A DNA stretch of 64,000 bases, taken from Pseudemcibacter aquimaris (GTDB lineage: Bacteria; Pseudomonadota; Alphaproteobacteria; Sphingomonadales; Emcibacteraceae). Location of the stretch: contig NZ_CP079800.1 of the NCBI RefSeq assembly GCF_028869115.1, positions 2,232,001 to 2,296,000 of the forward strand, read 5' to 3'. Shown here one piece after another: positions 41,204 to 55,136 of the stretch. Positions within the stretch are counted from its first letter, which is position 1. Each line of letters opens with the position of its first letter. A model generated the notes under the pieces. The model was given only the letters and a program-made list of their open reading frames with translations, was not told where the DNA came from and did no database searches. Position numbers and translations under genes: made by a program.

Positions 41204-41244
41204 AAAAAAAACACTCATCAAAATAATTTGGTGAGTGTTTTTTT
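41204..41244. terminator. Bidirectional intrinsic terminator
   Basis: A-tract, ACACTCA (41211-41217), a loop, TGAGTGT (41232-41238) and a T-tract. The flanking A and T runs extend the stem. It lies between the converging grpE and SPFH genes and serves both strands. Confidence 0.88.
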
Positions 41245-41269: not shown

Positions 41270-42166
41270 TTATCTGTTCCCAATAACATTTGACGCACTA
41301 TTGTTCGGCACGACATACACTTTTACATCCCTTAAAATATCTGCCATTTCTTCAAGATAAATGCGTCTTTCCATTGCCTCTGGTGATTTTTGCCATTCTG
41401 CGGCAAGACCGTTAAATCTCGCGACATCCCCTTTTGCACTTTCTAATCTTGCAAATTTTGCAGCCATTCCTTCGTTTCTGATGCGGGTAGCTTCCACCTC
41501 TGCATCAAATAAAACTTGGTTTTTCTGGGATTCCGCAAGTTCAATACGTCTATAACGGTCCGAATTAGCATTTTGTACCAATTGAAATGAATCGGCAACA
41601 CCATCATTACTGGGTGGGGAAAGCGATTTTACAATCACATCCTGCACCTGAATGCCGGTATTTGCGTTATCAAGCTCTACCTGCATGGCTTGGCGAATTT
41701 GACTGCCTAGAAGCTGTCTTCCTGTCGTCAGAATATCATCGACGCTTTTTTCCACCAATGAACGGGTCAGCATTTTTTGCGCCATAAAATCAAGGAACAC
41801 TTCCGGTCTGTCATGTGATGTTTCAAAAAGATCCAACCGTGTGATCGTATATTGGATATCAACCTGAATTTCCACAAGACTGGCACCGCCCGTCATCCAA
41901 AGATTTTGCGCACCATATGTAAAACTTTCAAGTGGTGGTGCAGTTTCACCAACAGAAAGAATAAGATTCGCTTTGGTTGTTTTTACGGTCTGGCTACCGA
42001 ATGGATAAGGGACATTCCAGTGAATGCCGGCCTCTACATTTTTATCAATCATCTTTCCAAAAATATAGGTAACCGCCGTTTCTTCTGGTTCTACAGCATA
42101 AAAGCCGGATACTGCGTATAACGGCAATAACAATGCTCCTAAACCATATAAGATTTTCTTGACCAT
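41270..42166 (-). CDS. SPFH (band 7) membrane protein, third member of the permease-SPFH operon
   Basis: A 298-residue protein with one N-terminal transmembrane helix (ILYGLGALLLPLYAVSGFY) and an SPFH domain (VEPEETAVTYIFGKMIDK, AGIHWNVPYPFGSQTV, VEIQVDIQYTITRLDLF). A coiled coil rich in Ala/Glu follows (VLFDAEVEATRIRNEGMAA). It resembles HflK, which with HflC forms a cage around the FtsH protease, but it is shorter and its companions are a metal permease fused to SPFH and an HflC-like protein. The stop is close to a bidirectional terminator. The ATG sits directly against the preceding stop (1-bp contact), so it is co-translated. Confidence 0.85.
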   Translation of the reverse strand: MVKKILYGLGALLLPLYAVSGFYAVEPEETAVTYIFGKMIDKNVEAGIHWNVPYPFGSQTVKTTKANLILSVGETAPPLESFTYGAQNLWMTGGASLVEIQVDIQYTITRLDLFETSHDRPEVFLDFMAQKMLTRSLVEKSVDDILTTGRQLLGSQIRQAMQVELDNANTGIQVQDVIVKSLSPPSNDGVADSFQLVQNANSDRYRRIELAESQKNQVLFDAEVEATRIRNEGMAAKFARLESAKGDVARFNGLAAEWQKSPEAMERRIYLEEMADILRDVKVYVVPNNSASNVIGNR

Positions 42167-43089
42167 TATCTGTCCGCCTTTCTATTTTCAAGCGGTGGAT
42201 TGGTCAACAGATCAAGAAGCGGGGAATCTTCCGGAAGGATCAAGGTTGTATCATTATCAATGATGCTTCCGTAAACTTCTAACGTTCTTAGGAATTCATA
42301 AAAACCTTCTTTATCCTTATAGGCTTCCGCATAAATTCGCGCGGCTTCGGCTTCGGCTTCACCACGGGCGATTTCCGCTTCTGCTTCAGCAGCAGAAATG
42401 ATTTCAGCACTTCTTCTATTGGCATCTGCAATTACTTTTCTTGCTTCTGCGTCCCCTTCGGAACGATACGATTTGGCGATACGTTCACGTTCCGCACGCA
42501 TACGTGCATAAACACTAATCAGGTTCTGTGCCGGGAAATTAAATTTTGAAACACCAATATTCGTAAGCTCAATACCATAATCACGGCTCGCTAAGGCAGA
42601 AGCCTCATTATATATTTTTTCTTCCATGATAGAGATATTTTCCGCCGCTCTCATGTCGCTTGCTTGCGTAATATCCGCAGGAATATAATCAGTGAAAGGT
42701 TTTTGCCCTAACGCGGCACCAAATAACGATTTCATTAAGTTTTCAATACGTGCTTCCGCCGCATCACGCGTTCTTAGTGCCGTAAGGAATTTTTCAGGAT
42801 CAACAATTCGCCATGTTAAGAAAGAGGATACAACGATGTTCTTCTTATCTGATGTAAGAAATTCTTCTTCTGGGATGATTTGATACATGTTTCTTTTATC
42901 AAACCTAACGACCCGTTCAAATGGCATAGGGAGCTTAACACGCAGACCTGGTTCATCATGAACAGCAACCGTGCGACCGAAACGCGTCACGATGCTATAT
43001 TCTGCTTCATTAACCACAAAAAAGGATGTCATCAAATATGCGACAACCAAAAGCGATCCTATTATCAGCGGTAATTTCTTCTTCAACAT
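42166..43089 (-). CDS. HflC-like SPFH membrane protein
   Basis: A 307-residue protein from the ATG at 43089, which has GGGAAGAG 8 bp upstream. The frame is open 21 codons further, into the previous gene, but without a better start. A transmembrane helix (LPLIIGSLLVVAYLMTSFFVV) is followed by HflC-type SPFH sequence (EYSIVTRFGRTVAVHDEPGL, RNMYQIIPEEEFLTSDKKN) and a long Ala/Glu coiled coil (SAAEAEAEIARGEAEAEAAR). HflC normally regulates FtsH from the periplasmic side. Here it is the middle gene of three, so a partnership with the permease-SPFH fusion is likely. Confidence 0.87.
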   Translation of the reverse strand: MLKKKLPLIIGSLLVVAYLMTSFFVVNEAEYSIVTRFGRTVAVHDEPGLRVKLPMPFERVVRFDKRNMYQIIPEEEFLTSDKKNIVVSSFLTWRIVDPEKFLTALRTRDAAEARIENLMKSLFGAALGQKPFTDYIPADITQASDMRAAENISIMEEKIYNEASALASRDYGIELTNIGVSKFNFPAQNLISVYARMRAERERIAKSYRSEGDAEARKVIADANRRSAEIISAAEAEAEIARGEAEAEAARIYAEAYKDKEGFYEFLRTLEVYGSIIDNDTTLILPEDSPLLDLLTNPPLENRKADR

Positions 43090-43105
43090 TATTAAACTCT
43101 TCCCA

Positions 43106-45271
43106 TTAATCCTTAAATTTGAACCTGACAACGTCTTCGGCGTTAGGATCAAGCCACAAATCGACCCCTTCTGAATTTTTCAAACCATTTAAATATAATT
43201 TTGGCGGCACCAGCCTTATTTCCTGAGATTCAAGCTGCAATCTTTTTTCTGTAATATATGGATATTGCCCATGCACATCGGCTAGCGGCTTAAATGCAGC
43301 CGCCTGCCCCTTGGCATTTGCAAGTTCACGTGTTGCTTCGACACTGGCGTTCGCTTTTATGTCCTCTGCATTACCGCGTGCATCATTCAATACGCGGATC
43401 GCATCACCATCCGCAAGGAACAATGACCTTTGCATATCTTCAAGTGAACTGGCCACATCACGAAATGCATCATGGACACGGTTCGGAGCATGAACATAAA
43501 CAAGACGCGCATCAAGTACTTTAAAACCTTGATCAAGAGTATCCACCTTGCCTTTTAGCTGATCGCGAAAACGACTTTCAAGATTATGCCTTTCTGTTGT
43601 GAAAACGGCATCAATCGGAAGCTGCACTGTTTCCGTCACAAGAACCTGTCTTGCGATATCCAACAGCAACTGATCATTTTGTTCGCTATAAAAGTGATAA
43701 TTATAAATATCATCAATTTCATAGGTAATAACCGACTTTATCAAAAGAACATTTTCATCAGCGGTCAGATACGTATTGAAATTTTCATATGAATTTAGCC
43801 TTACGCCAGCGGCTGTTGAATTACTAAGGCTTTCATCAATTGTAATTTGGCGAACATTGCCCGTATCAATAACCACGGCTTCCGTGATCGGTGACGGTAA
43901 TCTAAAATAAAGGCCAGGTGTTAAATTCTGATCCACCACTTCTCCAAACCTTAGGATCATACCCTGGCTGCCCGGTGGCACTTGAACCGTATATAATGGA
44001 TTAAGCATTACAACGAAAATTGCTGCTGCTGCGCCCATTAATTTTTGTTGATGGTTTCTTAAAACCTCAACGACTACAGCACCCTGTTTTTTAAGATCAT
44101 GTACTGGCTCCATGTAGCTTTTACGACTAAAGCTCGCAATCACCAACCCTAAGAAGATAACCGCAGAAGCCGATTTTACAACCATCCAGAAAGTATTATC
44201 AGCGCTATTTAGGGCAAGGATAGCATCCACACGAACAATATCCGCTGCAAAATAATCCAACGTTAAACCAAAACAGATCGCAACAACAATGATAGAAGAC
44301 AAATACGCCCACATGACCCTGTATCCAAGCATTTTGCCAACTATGTTAATTGTCGCAATACTTGTGGCTGGCCCTGTCAATAGATACACCAACGCCGCAC
44401 CAGGGGATAATCCGCTAACGATAAGGCCCGCTGCAACAGGCGTCGACATACTTGCACACGTATAAAGCGGCACACTGATAACGACCATAAGCAGCATCGT
44501 CAGAATGCCCGCAAGAAACCCATCACCAAAAGAAAAGAAATTATCCGGCAATACAGCCAGCATCACGCCGGTAATAACCAAGCCGACAACGATCCAAAAA
44601 GCAATATCATCAAGCATTGGCCCAAACCCATAGCGAAATACGCCTTTGGCTTTTTGCTTAATGTCAATATTTTTAGATTCTGCAAGATCCCCGTGATCGT
44701 GATGATGATGATGGTGATGGTGGTGGTGATCGTGATCATGGTCGTGACCATGATGGTGGTCATGATGATGGTGATGATGCGCAACTTCTTCTATGTTTTT
44801 TGCATCTTGTTCTGAACTTTCTTTATCATCTTTTTCATTGCGCGTTAAAAACGCACACGCAAGCCCCGCAGCAATAGCACTCACAATAGCAGCAATAGGG
44901 CGGTAAACAGCCATCACTGGCCCAAGAAGACCATAAGATACGATTACTGAATCAACACCTGTTTCAGGAACGGACACAATGAATGAAGCCGTGGCGGATT
45001 TTGACGCCCCTTTTTTACGAAGCGTTGCCGCAGCAGGAAGCACACTACAAGAACAAAGCGGAAGTGGCGCACCCAAAATGGTCGCCCAGAAGATTCCTTT
45101 AATCCCCTTTTGGCCAAGATTTTTTGTAATCAGTTTAATTGGGATAAATTCATGCATTATCCCAGCAAAAAATAATCCAAAAAGGATAAATATTGAGCTC
45201 TGATAAAATACCCCGACAATCTCGTTAAAGATGCTGGCTATTACGCCATACAGGTCTAACAAAATCTCCAT
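43106..45271 (-). CDS. Heavy-metal permease (SO_0444/ArsP-like) fused to an SPFH/HflK-like domain
   Basis: A 721-residue protein. Residues 1-385 form a permease of the DUF318/ArsP or SO_0444 Cu/Zn-efflux type. It has about eight transmembrane helices, the cysteine motif LPLCSCSVLP (C73, C75), a second conserved loop VPLYTCASMSTPVA (C272) and a His/Asp loop at 165-193. After a linker, a transmembrane helix at about 410-426 opens an HflK-like SPFH domain (VPPGSQGMILRFGEVVDQ, TPGLYFRLPSPI, coiled coil to about 690). The normal length of either family is about half of this. One uninterrupted frame with no internal stop argues for a true fusion. It is the first gene of a three-gene operon. Confidence 0.85.
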   Translation of the reverse strand: MEILLDLYGVIASIFNEIVGVFYQSSIFILFGLFFAGIMHEFIPIKLITKNLGQKGIKGIFWATILGAPLPLCSCSVLPAAATLRKKGASKSATASFIVSVPETGVDSVIVSYGLLGPVMAVYRPIAAIVSAIAAGLACAFLTRNEKDDKESSEQDAKNIEEVAHHHHHHDHHHGHDHDHDHHHHHHHHHHDHGDLAESKNIDIKQKAKGVFRYGFGPMLDDIAFWIVVGLVITGVMLAVLPDNFFSFGDGFLAGILTMLLMVVISVPLYTCASMSTPVAAGLIVSGLSPGAALVYLLTGPATSIATINIVGKMLGYRVMWAYLSSIIVVAICFGLTLDYFAADIVRVDAILALNSADNTFWMVVKSASAVIFLGLVIASFSRKSYMEPVHDLKKQGAVVVEVLRNHQQKLMGAAAAIFVVMLNPLYTVQVPPGSQGMILRFGEVVDQNLTPGLYFRLPSPITEAVVIDTGNVRQITIDESLSNSTAAGVRLNSYENFNTYLTADENVLLIKSVITYEIDDIYNYHFYSEQNDQLLLDIARQVLVTETVQLPIDAVFTTERHNLESRFRDQLKGKVDTLDQGFKVLDARLVYVHAPNRVHDAFRDVASSLEDMQRSLFLADGDAIRVLNDARGNAEDIKANASVEATRELANAKGQAAAFKPLADVHGQYPYITEKRLQLESQEIRLVPPKLYLNGLKNSEGVDLWLDPNAEDVVRFKFKD

Positions 45272-45309
45272 TGTGTTCCCTCTATTTCTTACTATTCAAA
45301 GCGAATAAT

Positions 45310-45337
45310 TTACAGCAAGCCGGACTATAGGCTGTAA
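45310..45337 (-). promoter_or_regulatory. Inverted repeat over the likely -10 box of the permease-SPFH operon
   Basis: TTACAGC (45310-45316) and GCTGTAA (45331-45337) are perfect inverted 7-mers separated by 14 bp. On the minus strand the spacer contains TATAGT (45324-45329), a good -10 box, about 50 bp upstream of the permease ATG. A regulator bound here would block RNA polymerase. No regulator gene is adjacent and the -35 box is weak, so this stays a prediction. Confidence 0.35.
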
Positions 45338-45558
45338 CAATGTAACAATAAAGCATTTATGGCAATAAAAACAAACTATTTATGCGCAATTGAGATCACA
45401 TTATGAGCTATATCAGAATACGTTTAAAACATTCAAAGCGGTCCGTATTTTAATGTATTTTCTAACGCCTTGAATCTATGACAAAAATACTTATCGCAAA
45501 ATCAATATCAGCCTTTAAATTTTTCAATTATTCAACACATAAAATAAATTAAAATTTC

Positions 45559-45993
45559 TTATTGTCTCGCACGAATTTCTACTTTCTTTTCAATCTCGCC
45601 CGCTTTTTCAAATTCAAGCTTTAGATCAATGGTATCACCCGGTCCGTATTTGTTATCCGTTTCAAACATCATGATATGATAACTGCCTGGTTTTAATTCC
45701 ACAGAACCACCCGCCGGAATTTCGATACCACCATCCACTTGACGCATTTTCATTACACCGTCTTCCATTAAATGATTGTGGATTTCAACACGCGGTGAAA
45801 TGGATGACGTTGCCCCGACCAGCTTGTCAGTATCCGCGCCATTATTTTTTATTGTTAAAAAAGCCCCACCCGGACGGCCCGCGATCAGTATCGGACGTGC
45901 CCATTCACCAGATACAATTATATCACCATCCGCAGCATTTGCAGCAAACGGGAAAGTCACCAAAATAGATAAAATAACAATCAGTTTTTTCAT
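45559..45993 (-). CDS. PCu(A)C-type periplasmic copper chaperone
   Basis: A 144-residue protein with a Sec signal peptide (cut near ANAA-DG). The copper-binding pattern of the family is visible: the His/Met run HNHLMEDGVMKM, then SYHIMMF about 21 residues later (the H(M)x10Mx21HxM arrangement). Such proteins carry Cu(I) in the periplasm, often to cytochrome oxidase. It lies on the same strand 287 bp upstream of the permease-SPFH operon, which supports a copper link for that operon, though the gap suggests separate promoters. Confidence 0.9.
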   Translation of the reverse strand: MKKLIVILSILVTFPFAANAADGDIIVSGEWARPILIAGRPGGAFLTIKNNGADTDKLVGATSSISPRVEIHNHLMEDGVMKMRQVDGGIEIPAGGSVELKPGSYHIMMFETDNKYGPGDTIDLKLEFEKAGEIEKKVEIRARQ

Positions 45994-51630: not shown

Positions 51631-53061
51631 ATGGCGAATAAATTTATTGATGACGGCACGTTAGTATTAAATGAGCTGTCAGATTATTTGGACACGTCCG
51701 CAGACGAAAATACAACCGTTATCGATCAGGTTCCGATGAAAGATATCATTAATGATCTTTCATTATTGGATTTACTTGAAAATGGCGGGCTCGAGGGGGA
51801 AAGATTACAAAAATTCACCCATGACTATTTAAATCTAACAACAAAGCTTCATCATCCACAGTGCCTCGCGCATCAAATCAGCGCACCGCATAGTAACGGT
51901 GCCTATGCGGCGATGATTGATGGCTTAACCAACAATGAAACATCCATATATGAAATGGGGCCAGCAACAACGACCATCGAATATATAATGATCAATTGGA
52001 TGCTTGAAAAAATCGGATGGACGCCATCACCGCTACCCGGATCGGTAGAGGCAGAAACAATGACAGAATATGCGGGCGGGGTGATGACCCACGGTGGGTC
52101 ACTTGCCAACTTAACGGCCATGCTTGCCGCAAGAAGTGCAAAATTCCCGAACCTTTGGCGTGATGGTACACCGGGCAATATGGTCATTCTTGTGCCTGAA
52201 CAGTCCCATTATTCACTTAAACGAACTGCGGGTATTATGGGGCTTGGTGAAAGAAATTGCATCGCACTGCCTGCTGATCAAGATGGTCGGGTACTTCCAT
52301 CAGAAATCCCGGCAATGTTAGAAACTTTAAAAGACGAAAACAAACAGGTTTTAGCAATCGTCGGAAATGCTTGCGGCACAGCTGCCGGTCTTTATGACCC
52401 GCTTAAGGAAATGGGTGAAATATGTCAAAAGCACGACATCTGGTTCCATGTGGACGCGGCCCACGGTGCAGGCGCGATTATTTGTGATGAATTAAGATAT
52501 CTTGTTGAAGGTATTGAGCTGGCCGACAGCGTGATTTGGGATGCGCATAAGATGTTCAGAACCCCTGCCTTATGCGCAACGATACTGGTGAAAGATCACC
52601 GCCATATTAATAGCGCCTTTAGCCAGGACGCCAGTTACATGTTCCATGAAAAAGACCAGCCCGGCGTTGATCTTGCCTTAAGAACCCTAGAATGCACCAA
52701 ATCGGCCCTTGGTGTAAAAATGTTTATGACTGTAGCCGCCATGGGTGAACAAAAATTAGCGGATTATATTTCCGGCAGAACAAAGCTCACCCAAGATGCC
52801 GCAGAATACATAAATTCACTGAATGATTTTGAATGCGGCGTAACACCGGAAACAAACATTATCTGTTTCAGAATTGATGGCGACGACCAACGACAGCTGG
52901 ACATCAGAAAGAAACTTTTAAACAAGGGCGATTTTTACATCACCACGACGAAGTATAAAAACCGCTGGTGGTTAAGACGCGTCTTCATCAGCACCGCATC
53001 TGAACTTAGACATTTCAAAAAATTGATAGATGAAATTCGGGAAATTAATAAATCCCTTTAA
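51631..53061 (+). CDS. PLP-dependent group II decarboxylase (copy 2)
   Basis: A 476-residue tandem paralogue of the gene before it, with the same motifs: GVMTHGGSLANLTAMLAARS, EQSHYSLKRT, D275 in FHVDAAHGAGA and K307 in WDAHKMFRTP. Similarity is high around the active site and lower in the first 60 residues. Both copies look catalytically intact, so they may form a heteromer or have split substrates. The stop overlaps the convergent DsbD-like gene by 4 bp. Confidence 0.88.
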   Translation: MANKFIDDGTLVLNELSDYLDTSADENTTVIDQVPMKDIINDLSLLDLLENGGLEGERLQKFTHDYLNLTTKLHHPQCLAHQISAPHSNGAYAAMIDGLTNNETSIYEMGPATTTIEYIMINWMLEKIGWTPSPLPGSVEAETMTEYAGGVMTHGGSLANLTAMLAARSAKFPNLWRDGTPGNMVILVPEQSHYSLKRTAGIMGLGERNCIALPADQDGRVLPSEIPAMLETLKDENKQVLAIVGNACGTAAGLYDPLKEMGEICQKHDIWFHVDAAHGAGAIICDELRYLVEGIELADSVIWDAHKMFRTPALCATILVKDHRHINSAFSQDASYMFHEKDQPGVDLALRTLECTKSALGVKMFMTVAAMGEQKLADYISGRTKLTQDAAEYINSLNDFECGVTPETNIICFRIDGDDQRQLDIRKKLLNKGDFYITTTKYKNRWWLRRVFISTASELRHFKKLIDEIREINKSL

Positions 53062-55136
53062 AGGGCATCGATAACAATATCCGGCGTTAAAATTTGCGGC
53101 AGGATATCAGGGTTATCCATTGTGCGTCCCACTGGGAAATATAGGTAAAGCGGCACACCAATGCGGCCATAACGCTGCAGCGTGCGTGTGATATCCGGGT
53201 TTTGATTGGTCCAGTCACCAACCATGACCGTGATGTCTTTTTCGGCAAATGCCTGATGCACATTATCCTGCGAAAGGGCCACACGTTCATTTAATTTACA
53301 CGTCACGCACCAATCTGCCGTAAAATACACGAATACGGGCTCTCCACGATCAAGCATGGCATTCAATTCATTTGAACTAAACGCAATCGCTTGTAATCCG
53401 CTTTCGTCCGCTTCGATGACTGATTTCTGAGTATCGAGGTTCGATAGATAATACCCCGTAAATAATACACCGATGGCGCTGATTATTGATACCGCTTTCC
53501 ATAATGTTTCGTTCTTATTAAGCGCCCAAATTGATAACGATAATAATAATCCAGCGGCAATTGCAATTGTCATGGCATTAACGCCCAATTGATTCCCCAA
53601 AATCCAGAACAGCCATAACGCCGTGGCAAACATTGGAATACCAAGTATTTTACGTAAATTTTCCATCCATGCACCCGGACGCGGTAAAGCTCGCCTGAAC
53701 GCAGGAACAAAACAAAGCAATAAATATGGAAACGCAAGACCAAACCCCAGCGCAAGGAAAATGATAATTCCAGTTACACCGCCCGATAAAAATGCATACC
53801 CAAGCGCACCCGCCATAAATGGCGCAGTACATGGCGTTGCAACCACCACTGCAAGAACGCCCGTGAAGAAGGTTGATTTGCGGCTGTTATTTGATGCAAC
53901 CAGATTTTGACCAACCCCCATCAGGCTGCTGCCAATTTCAAAAACGCCGAGCAGATTAAGCCCAATAAGCACCATCAATAAACCAAGCGAGAAATTCACA
54001 AGTGGCATTTGCATGTGAAAACCCCAACCAAGCGAAAACAGGCTTACGATGACACCAAGAAGGCCGAAACTTAAAACTACCCCACCTGTATAAAGCAGAC
54101 CACTTATGCGAACTTCTGTCGGATCTTTTTTGGAAAGCTCAACAACACTCATCGCTTTAAGGCTTAAAATCGGGAACACGCATGGCATCAAATTCAAGAT
54201 CACACCACCAAGAAACGCAAATAACAGTGCCGTACCAAAATCAAGTGATGGTAATGTGGGTGCTGCTTCGCTGCTTTCCATTTCAAAAACTGGTGCAATA
54301 GGTGCCATCGATTTCGAAGCCGATAGGAAATATGCGTGATCCACGCCTTCCCCGGTTTTAAAGGTCAGTACAAATTCGAATGTATCATTATCTTCGTATC
54401 TGAAGGCGTTATTAAAACGGCCGATGATTTCCCCATTAATGAATGACAGGTTTTGTCTATAAACATTTTCCATCATTCCATCTGAAAAGGGGAATAAATA
54501 TGCGCTTTCAATGACGGCTATTTCATCAGGAAGAATGCTTTTAACGGTGAAATTTTCACCGTCTGTGTGAAAACTACTTGGCCAGTCAATATGAACCGGC
54601 ATATCAGCTTTTACGGTCTCTACGGTCGCGACGCGGGCGTTATCCGTTACATCGTCACCAATATCAATTGTATGGCTAATTGGTGCATCCTGCGGCACAC
54701 ATAACGCATCTGAACAAATAAGCCAGAATGCATTGCCGCTTAAGATTAATTGATCCTGATTAAAGTCTTCGGAAAGCTTGCCATCCGCAATAATGGTGAC
54801 TGTGCCTTCGTAACCATATGATACGATCTCTTCAAATGGAATAAGATGAGGTGTGGTGAATTGGAAATCCCCAATTTCAACGCCATCCGGTAATTTCCAA
54901 TCCATTTCCAGCTTCAAACCCGCATCACCCGGGTTTTCCCAGTAACCATGCCACCCCTCGTCTGGCGTCATTTCAATGATAACGGTAAATTCTGATCCGG
55001 GTGAAATGCTTGTTTTATCCGCCGTTAATTCAAGATTTGCCAGATCCGTTCTGACAGAAGTTGCATTTGAAACACCAAGCATCGCCGTTAAGGCGACAAG
55101 ACCAAAAAACAGTATTCTTAAAAAGGAGCGGATCAT
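53058..55136 (-). CDS. DsbD/ScsB-like membrane thiol-disulfide reductase
   Basis: A 692-residue protein with a Sec signal, an N-terminal periplasmic DsbD-alpha-like region (about 30-280) with the cysteine pair in LICSDALCVPQ, and a membrane domain from about 310. That domain has two conserved proline-cysteine motifs (LMPCVFPILSLKA and VATPCTAPFMAG). A C-terminal thioredoxin domain carries C610-V-T-C613 (ADWCVTCK). It passes electrons from cytoplasmic thioredoxin to periplasmic partners. The large N-terminal domain is more like ScsB than classic DsbD; ScsB-type proteins are tied to copper tolerance, and a copper chaperone lies 7 kb away. Confidence 0.88.
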   Translation of the reverse strand: MIRSFLRILFFGLVALTAMLGVSNATSVRTDLANLELTADKTSISPGSEFTVIIEMTPDEGWHGYWENPGDAGLKLEMDWKLPDGVEIGDFQFTTPHLIPFEEIVSYGYEGTVTIIADGKLSEDFNQDQLILSGNAFWLICSDALCVPQDAPISHTIDIGDDVTDNARVATVETVKADMPVHIDWPSSFHTDGENFTVKSILPDEIAVIESAYLFPFSDGMMENVYRQNLSFINGEIIGRFNNAFRYEDNDTFEFVLTFKTGEGVDHAYFLSASKSMAPIAPVFEMESSEAAPTLPSLDFGTALLFAFLGGVILNLMPCVFPILSLKAMSVVELSKKDPTEVRISGLLYTGGVVLSFGLLGVIVSLFSLGWGFHMQMPLVNFSLGLLMVLIGLNLLGVFEIGSSLMGVGQNLVASNNSRKSTFFTGVLAVVVATPCTAPFMAGALGYAFLSGGVTGIIIFLALGFGLAFPYLLLCFVPAFRRALPRPGAWMENLRKILGIPMFATALWLFWILGNQLGVNAMTIAIAAGLLLSLSIWALNKNETLWKAVSIISAIGVLFTGYYLSNLDTQKSVIEADESGLQAIAFSSNELNAMLDRGEPVFVYFTADWCVTCKLNERVALSQDNVHQAFAEKDITVMVGDWTNQNPDITRTLQRYGRIGVPLYLYFPVGRTMDNPDILPQILTPDIVIDAL

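Follow-up and report, generated by a model that had tools for sequence, protein, structure and literature searches.

Why would a metal permease carry a cage-type membrane domain as its own tail? The question is raised by a three-gene cassette in a 64,000-nucleotide stretch of the Pseudemcibacter aquimaris genome (contig NZ_CP079800.1, positions 2,232,001 to 2,296,000; hereafter the window), where one gene joins an SO_0444/ArsP_1-type permease to an HflK-type SPFH domain and two further SPFH genes follow. An earlier note, written from the letters of this stretch, had singled out the arrangement and proposed a metal-export or metal-stress machine. We find that the fusion is no artefact, that it is rare, that it recurs in two phyla, and that the locus is a variant of a poorly understood Zur-linked SPFH operon. 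The metal theme of the earlier note stands; its copper or heavy-metal export setting is not supported, since the neighbouring PCu(A)C copper chaperone gene is not conserved and relatives of the locus have zinc-uptake genes (9 of 17) and Zur-type boxes (five). With some reserve, we consider it probable that the products of the three genes form a single inner-membrane complex that belongs to the zinc-starvation response.

Architecture and distribution of the fusion

The fusion gene is one uninterrupted 721-codon open reading frame (ORF) in the ORF listing, as the earlier note had read it (coordinates are collected in Table 1). Its first part passes the SO_0444 model NF033936 and matches Pfam ArsP_1. 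Its second part reaches 119.6 bits against the TIGR01933 hflK model, under the cut-off of 159.4, and in the PDB the fusion is matched best by HflK chains, 7vhq and 7vhp among them; Pfam Band_7 was not called in the fusion at E 0.01, whereas it was called in the second and third genes. The two motifs and the His-rich loop that the earlier note named are all in the sequence, and C272, A273, S274, S276, T277 and P278 are invariant in a three-row alignment (A2). A Pfam Zip match of 20.4 bits (cut-off 35.1) spans the His run at residues 152-196 and was set aside. By hydropathy analysis, Lys/Arg-rich loops lie at residues 40-58, at the start of 79-114, and at 146-214 and 383-410, which would make the His-rich loop and the C-terminal end of the permease cytoplasmic. 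From a cytoplasmic permease end, the helix at 411-429 would in turn lead the SPFH domain into the periplasm, as in HflK.

The downstream genes are tightly packed, with the spacing first described in the earlier note. The fusion stop (43108-43106) and the HflC-type ATG (43089-43087) leave a 16-bp gap (43090-43105), and the HflC-type stop (42168-42166) overlaps the ATG of the third gene (42166-42164) by one base. The middle gene passes the TIGR01932 hflC model (180.4 bits, cut-off 134.4), and the third stays under the hflK cut-off.

Is the fusion a sequencing artefact, as the earlier note had worried? The same architecture was found in 17 loci, and profiles of the three SPFH types place the HflC-type and second HflK-type genes directly after the fusion in 16 of them (the exception is G794; G, L and C numbers are our handles for genomes, loci and contigs). 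Full-length fusions were searched with a four-sequence profile (A1) around four centres: the window's genus (4 of 13 genomes), the order of the alphaproteobacterial G279 (4 of 11), the order of G788, a gammaproteobacterial metagenome-assembled genome (4 of 109), and the order of G789, from Acidobacteriota (5 of 72). The total of 17 in 205, which includes the window's own locus, is no prevalence, because the centres were picked as carriers. In G789 (locus L036) a run of 100 N, an assembly gap, lies inside the fusion frame, so that the fusion there is likely, short of proof. Across the 147 genomes of the window's order, all four carriers fall within the genus, and in a phylum sample of 398 genomes the window's own genome is the sole carrier among the matches listed (by E-value, two candidates scored per genome). 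A class survey of 289 genomes had five in which the permease cut-off was passed, two of them (the window's own and G279) in fusion-length frames. Eighteen plasmid records gave partial matches, none covering 80%, and no fusion. A search for the third SPFH type in 369 gammaproteobacterial genomes, scoring up to four candidates per genome, gave a high score in G788 alone (588.4 bits); the 18 other matches listed (at E 1e-66) reach 226-260 bits and overlap canonical HflK scores. The two of these 18 that were inspected read as canonical, L171 by its HflK N-terminus and L172 by its neighbouring HflC gene. No description of the fusion was found in the titles, abstracts and passages seen of the open-licence PMC papers that our searches listed; the earlier note, too, had known of none.

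Are these SPFH proteins simply the canonical cage pair? A tree of 85 SPFH domains was used, with the fusion domain as type A, the HflC-type protein as type B and the third gene as type C. Types A and C group towards HflK and type B towards HflC, and none of the three falls within the canonical clades. The 11 canonical HflC rows form a clade with support 99/98 and the 11 HflK rows one with 99/99; neither contains an A, B or C member, and each takes in two rows from an extra Pseudomonas-type HflK/HflC pair. Type B is one group (88/89). The window's own genome carries a separate canonical-type HflK/HflC pair at C1:286.8-288.3 kb, plus one further SPFH gene elsewhere. The SPFH partners are thus distinct from the cell's canonical HflK/HflC, as the earlier note had supposed. 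In the permease tree, the fused permeases lie within one region (node 83/73) that also takes in unfused permeases from Acidobacteriota, which suggests repeated gain or loss of the SPFH tail. Of the five label changes there, one is spurious and stems from a truncated copy of the window's fusion (L004) that bears the unfused label.

Zinc-uptake genes and Zur-type boxes

Which metal does the cassette serve? When flanks were searched with proteins of these loci, zinc-uptake genes of the Znu or Zrg kind were found near 9 of the 17 fusions. ZnuA, ZnuB and ZnuC all lie near the fusion in G780, G903, G905, G906 and G789, ZnuB with ZnuC in G782, and ZnuA alone in G279 and G781; G831 has ZrgA (PF10986, 121 bits, cut-off 27.4) with DUF3299/MerC and ABC genes. 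The Znu assignments were checked on examples: ZnuA of L135 and L037 score 199.3 and 213.4 bits in Pfam (cut-off 29), and ZnuA, ZnuB and ZnuC of L135 have Znu models as best NCBIfam matches, below their cut-offs. The G906 locus also has a Zur-type gene (NF008646, 76.3 bits, under the cut-off of 167; PF01475, 28.3 bits, over the cut-off of 23.1), with a homologue in the G905 locus. Because related loci count repeatedly, about four lineages are independent (the G279 group, the G788 group, G789 and G831). Twenty kilobases make up about 0.5% of such a genome, so that, by our own rough estimate, chance co-location with zinc genes is unlikely.

Regulatory sites agree with this in part. Of the 12 znuA promoters identified in the genus, 11 went into the Zur-box matrix; L166, which has no clear box, was omitted. 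Ahead of the fusion, Zur-type sites score 24.1 in G782, 17.2 in G903, 14.9 in G781, 13.5 in G788 and 12.2 in G279; for each, none of 200 shuffles was as good, and each is first or second best in its whole-locus scan. The linked Znu/Zrg genes and the boxes ahead of five fusions therefore point to zinc starvation, not metal excess, and a permease made when zinc is short would more likely serve in its uptake or retention.

A second line of evidence comes from Pseudomonas. Three loci (L155-L157; genomes G991, G1012 and G1018, whose assignment to Pseudomonas is itself inferred) have HflK-type, HflC-type and HflK-type genes in that order, followed by a gene for an HmtA-like heavy-metal P-type ATPase; they are putatively linked to PA2439-PA2437 of P. 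aeruginosa, by gene order and the HmtA-like neighbour. A 651-685-amino-acid frame matches in 8 of 99 genomes of the Pseudomonas-type genus, these three included. Their best Zur-type site in 18 kb stands just ahead of the trio in two of the three (7.3 and 8.4), not in L156. In a P. aeruginosa znuA mutant PA2439, PA2438 and PA2437 rise 9.0-, 10.6- and 14.4-fold and hmtA 5.6-fold; the same paper lists a weak Zur site (PMC4542158). Zur binds the PA2439 promoter in an electrophoretic mobility shift assay (PMC8531726), zinc depletion raises the three proteins, significantly for some (PMC11761036), and a transcriptome study includes the trio among the genes of the zur regulon (PMC9431628). In the Pseudomonas-type loci, the A-type proteins have another multi-helix N-terminal domain where the fusion has its permease; as a remnant permease this domain was rejected, with no similarity found in a weak test (hhalign probability 0.2%, 3 against 16 sequences).

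Two side observations belong here. The HflC-type proteins at L155:6946-7989 and L156:8468-9484 start with His-rich stretches, as do the HmtA-like ATPases of L156 and L157. At other Pseudomonas-type loci (L152:3903-8440 and L154:7625-12265; L153 is similar) an extra HflK/HflC-like pair is directly followed by two transporter-type genes, which we take to be of the Nramp and TerC types, possibly another pairing of SPFH proteins with metal transporters.

Several observations weigh against the zinc-starvation reading. No Znu or Zrg gene was found in the examined flanks of 8 of the 17 fusions (G000, the window's own genome, and G342, G333, G348, G788, G828, G829 and G794), some of whose contigs are short (9.1 kb in G828). 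The window has no linked zinc-uptake gene, and its Zur-like site scores 8.4, against 24.1 for the znuA box of the same genome (with the first matrix, 2.4 against 19.3-24.7). A fraction of 0.055 of shuffles does as well, and three other sites in the 64 kb score better. The case for Zur control of the operon in the window is thus not convincing, and the zinc evidence is weak in the window itself, whose copy is presumed to share the function of its relatives. Elsewhere in the genus the best scores ahead of the fusion are 4.3 (G342) and 4.9 (G348), and the best site of G333 overlaps an N run; G342 and G333 have neither a linked zinc gene nor a good Zur-type site. G905 and G906 have no Zur-type site ahead of the fusion (-1.7 and -5.6), their best sites lying between znuA and znuC (10.2 and 9.7). 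In G780 the highest-scoring site (24.5) is found between znuA and the fusion, but the nearest 400 bp reach no more than 7.1. Scores below zero were obtained for all four acidobacterial loci scanned (G789, G831, G828 and G829). ZnuA occurs in 12 of the 13 genus genomes, cassette present or not, which rules out the cassette as a ZnuABC substitute. Types A and C do not each form one clade with the window's genus in the SPFH tree (two changes each), because that genus stands apart on long branches; the shared architecture makes a single origin of the fusion likely, and the tree gives no proof of it. AlphaFold2 gave no usable structure of the fusion from a three-row alignment (mean predicted local distance difference test score 37.4). 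In Pseudomonas, a 2026 study names the trio PaFlo5-7, of narrow distribution, and reports only subtle phenotypes for its deletion, among them less biofilm and weaker virulence towards an insect host, with no zinc test seen (PMC13086221).

Around the cassette, a CTTTATTGTTW-like stretch ahead of the fusion start is common to the four genus promoters by alignment (45300-45380 in the window). No HmtA match was found within the 64-kb window at E 1e-5; the permease is present instead. In all eight loci of the G279 and G788 groups, a Peripla_BP_6-type binding protein gene and a gene for a membrane protein of a 158-amino-acid type, without Pfam match, occur together with the cassette (Table 1), and four of the eight (L035, L037, L111 and L134) have a Na/Pi cotransporter gene.

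Table 1. Features of the cassette and its surroundings, in window positions unless a locus is named
Feature	Position	Strand	Basis
Fusion gene, 721 amino acids: SO_0444/ArsP_1-type permease, transmembrane helix, HflK-type SPFH domain	43106..45271	(-)	ORF listing, Pfam, NCBIfam
Permease part, residues 19-379	44135..45217	(-)	NF033936 386.4 bits (cut-off 300); PF03773 139 bits
CSCS motif, residues 73-76	45044..45055	(-)	sequence
His-rich loop, residues 146-214, 23 His; probably cytoplasmic	44630..44836	(-)	hydropathy and Lys/Arg count
TCASMSTP motif, residues 271-278	44438..44461	(-)	three-row alignment
Last transmembrane helix ahead of SPFH domain, residues 411-429	43985..44041	(-)	hydropathy
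HflK-type SPFH domain, residues 432-683; probably periplasmic	43223..43978	(-)	TIGR01933, SPFH tree
HflC-type SPFH gene, ATG at 43089 (ORF 42166..43152)	42166..43089	(-)	TIGR01932, B group of tree
Second HflK-type SPFH gene, third in cassette	41270..42166	(-)	PF01145 41.7 bits (cut-off 23.6); TIGR01933 142.1 bits (cut-off 159.4)
Weak Zur-like site, 59-79 bp before fusion ATG	45330..45350	.	matrix score 8.4
Hairpin, 8-bp arms, then T run; likely transcript end	41210..41239	(-)	sequence reading
PCu(A)C gene, upstream of fusion	45559-45993		PF04314
DsbD/ScsB-type reductase gene, about 8 kb from fusion	53058-55136		DsbD_TM, DsbD_N and thioredoxin domains
Peripla_BP_6-type / 158-amino-acid-type gene stretches	L134:3828-5635, L135:4489-6297, L136:3513-5308, L035:10819-12624		
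Peripla_BP_6-type / 158-amino-acid-type gene stretches	L037:4606-6413, L110:6495-8248, L111:4637-6450, L112:13530-15199		

Candidate roles for the complex

How might such a complex work? In the zinc-starvation reading, the HflK-type SPFH domain that the fusion carries behind the permease and the last transmembrane helix would face the periplasm. The fusion subunit, the HflC-type protein and the second HflK-type protein would assemble into a mixed SPFH ring, to which each A subunit would bring a permease, so that one or several permeases might sit in the membrane patch beneath a periplasmic cage. The complex would work beside the ZnuABC or Zrg importers, or in Pseudomonas an HmtA-type P-type ATPase, and would most likely aid zinc import or retention in scarcity. 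A bolder version, which we put forward tentatively as a possibility on the doubtful side, makes the cage itself a zinc-uptake machine: several permeases, each part of a wall subunit, would open into an enclosed periplasmic chamber that captures scarce zinc and passes it across the membrane, and the transporter type would be exchangeable by lineage, here a fused permease and there a P-type ATPase alongside.

Could the metal flow outwards instead? The permease would then expel zinc (or copper) and have an SPFH cage to itself, the ring scaffolding or gating it, and in zinc-uptake loci it might act as a safety valve for overshoot after zinc returns. All five fusions tested pass the NF033936 cut-off, whose family model stands for Cu/Zn efflux, and SO_0444 is required for growth under ZnSO4 or CuCl2 stress, as an exporter would be (PMC3219624); the window's Zur-like site is weak. 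The earlier note had placed a PCu(A)C chaperone gene upstream of the fusion and an ScsB-like reductase gene further off, and both carry the corresponding Pfam domains. The former, a neighbour that would suit export, has no match in the examined flanks of the other 16 fused loci, and the copper setting was dropped. The relatives' Zur-type boxes and Znu/Zrg neighbours imply expression in zinc scarcity and would argue against a fusion permease exporting zinc or copper under excess, and we hold the exporter to be unlikely. An unfused SO_0444-family permease in G823 (L133:468-4153; 340 bits, cut-off 300) lies downstream of ZnuA-, ZnuC- and ZnuB-like genes; for this sub-group, "Cu/Zn efflux" may name the wrong direction of transport.

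In the window's genus, the cassette might also have been captured for another job, with another metal or stress in place of zinc. Three of the four genus loci have no zinc gene in their examined flanks, none of the four has a convincing Zur-like site ahead of the fusion, and the genus A and C genes sit on long branches. Against this, architecture and motifs are unchanged, and in G348 a ZIP-like gene (L109:8469-9253; Pfam Zip 19.7 bits, under the cut-off of 35.1) follows the third SPFH gene, with the best Zur-type site of 16 kb (18.6) between the two, not ahead of the cassette. A separate job of this kind strikes us as quite improbable.

Slightly less probable again is that the trio forms a zinc-starvation HflK/HflC cage controlling a membrane protease, be it FtsH or a different one, such that metal transporters are spared or remodelled, with the permease mainly as an anchor: homology to HflK/HflC and the other multi-helix domain of the Pseudomonas-type A proteins, which makes the permease look exchangeable, would fit, but the permease motifs conserved across fusions appear to call for a working transporter, A and C stay under the hflK cut-off and outside the canonical clades, and the window's own genome retains its canonical pair.

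We therefore return to the zinc-starvation complex as the preferred reading. A covalent link between permease and SPFH domain offers a direct handle on what a cage does to its client transporter, which matters for the many bacterial SPFH proteins of unclear function.

Comparison with known systems

The HflK/HflC cage of E. coli surrounds FtsH. The window shares its SPFH domains, with one HflC-type and two HflK-type proteins, and differs in having three subunits, one of them fused to a permease, that fall outside the canonical clades beside a separate canonical pair. SO_0444, whose operon includes the gene of a ZntR-like regulator (PMC3219624), resembles the permease part in its score over the family cut-off and in its CSC and CxSxSTP motifs. 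Unlike SO_0444, the fusion has an SPFH tail and two SPFH partners, and about half of its relatives sit in a zinc-uptake neighbourhood.

The closest parallel is PA2439-PA2438-PA2437-hmtA. In both systems three SPFH genes stand in one operon beside a metal transporter, and the HflK-type, HflC-type, HflK-type order of the window is that of the Pseudomonas-type loci. The P. aeruginosa operon is published as induced by zinc depletion and bound by Zur; among the fused loci, five relatives have clear Zur-type boxes and the window has its site of 8.4. What differs is the transporter: Pseudomonas has a free-standing P-type ATPase, and its first SPFH gene has another multi-helix domain. The fused cassette also hints at what the unexplained SPFH operon of Pseudomonas may do in zinc starvation.

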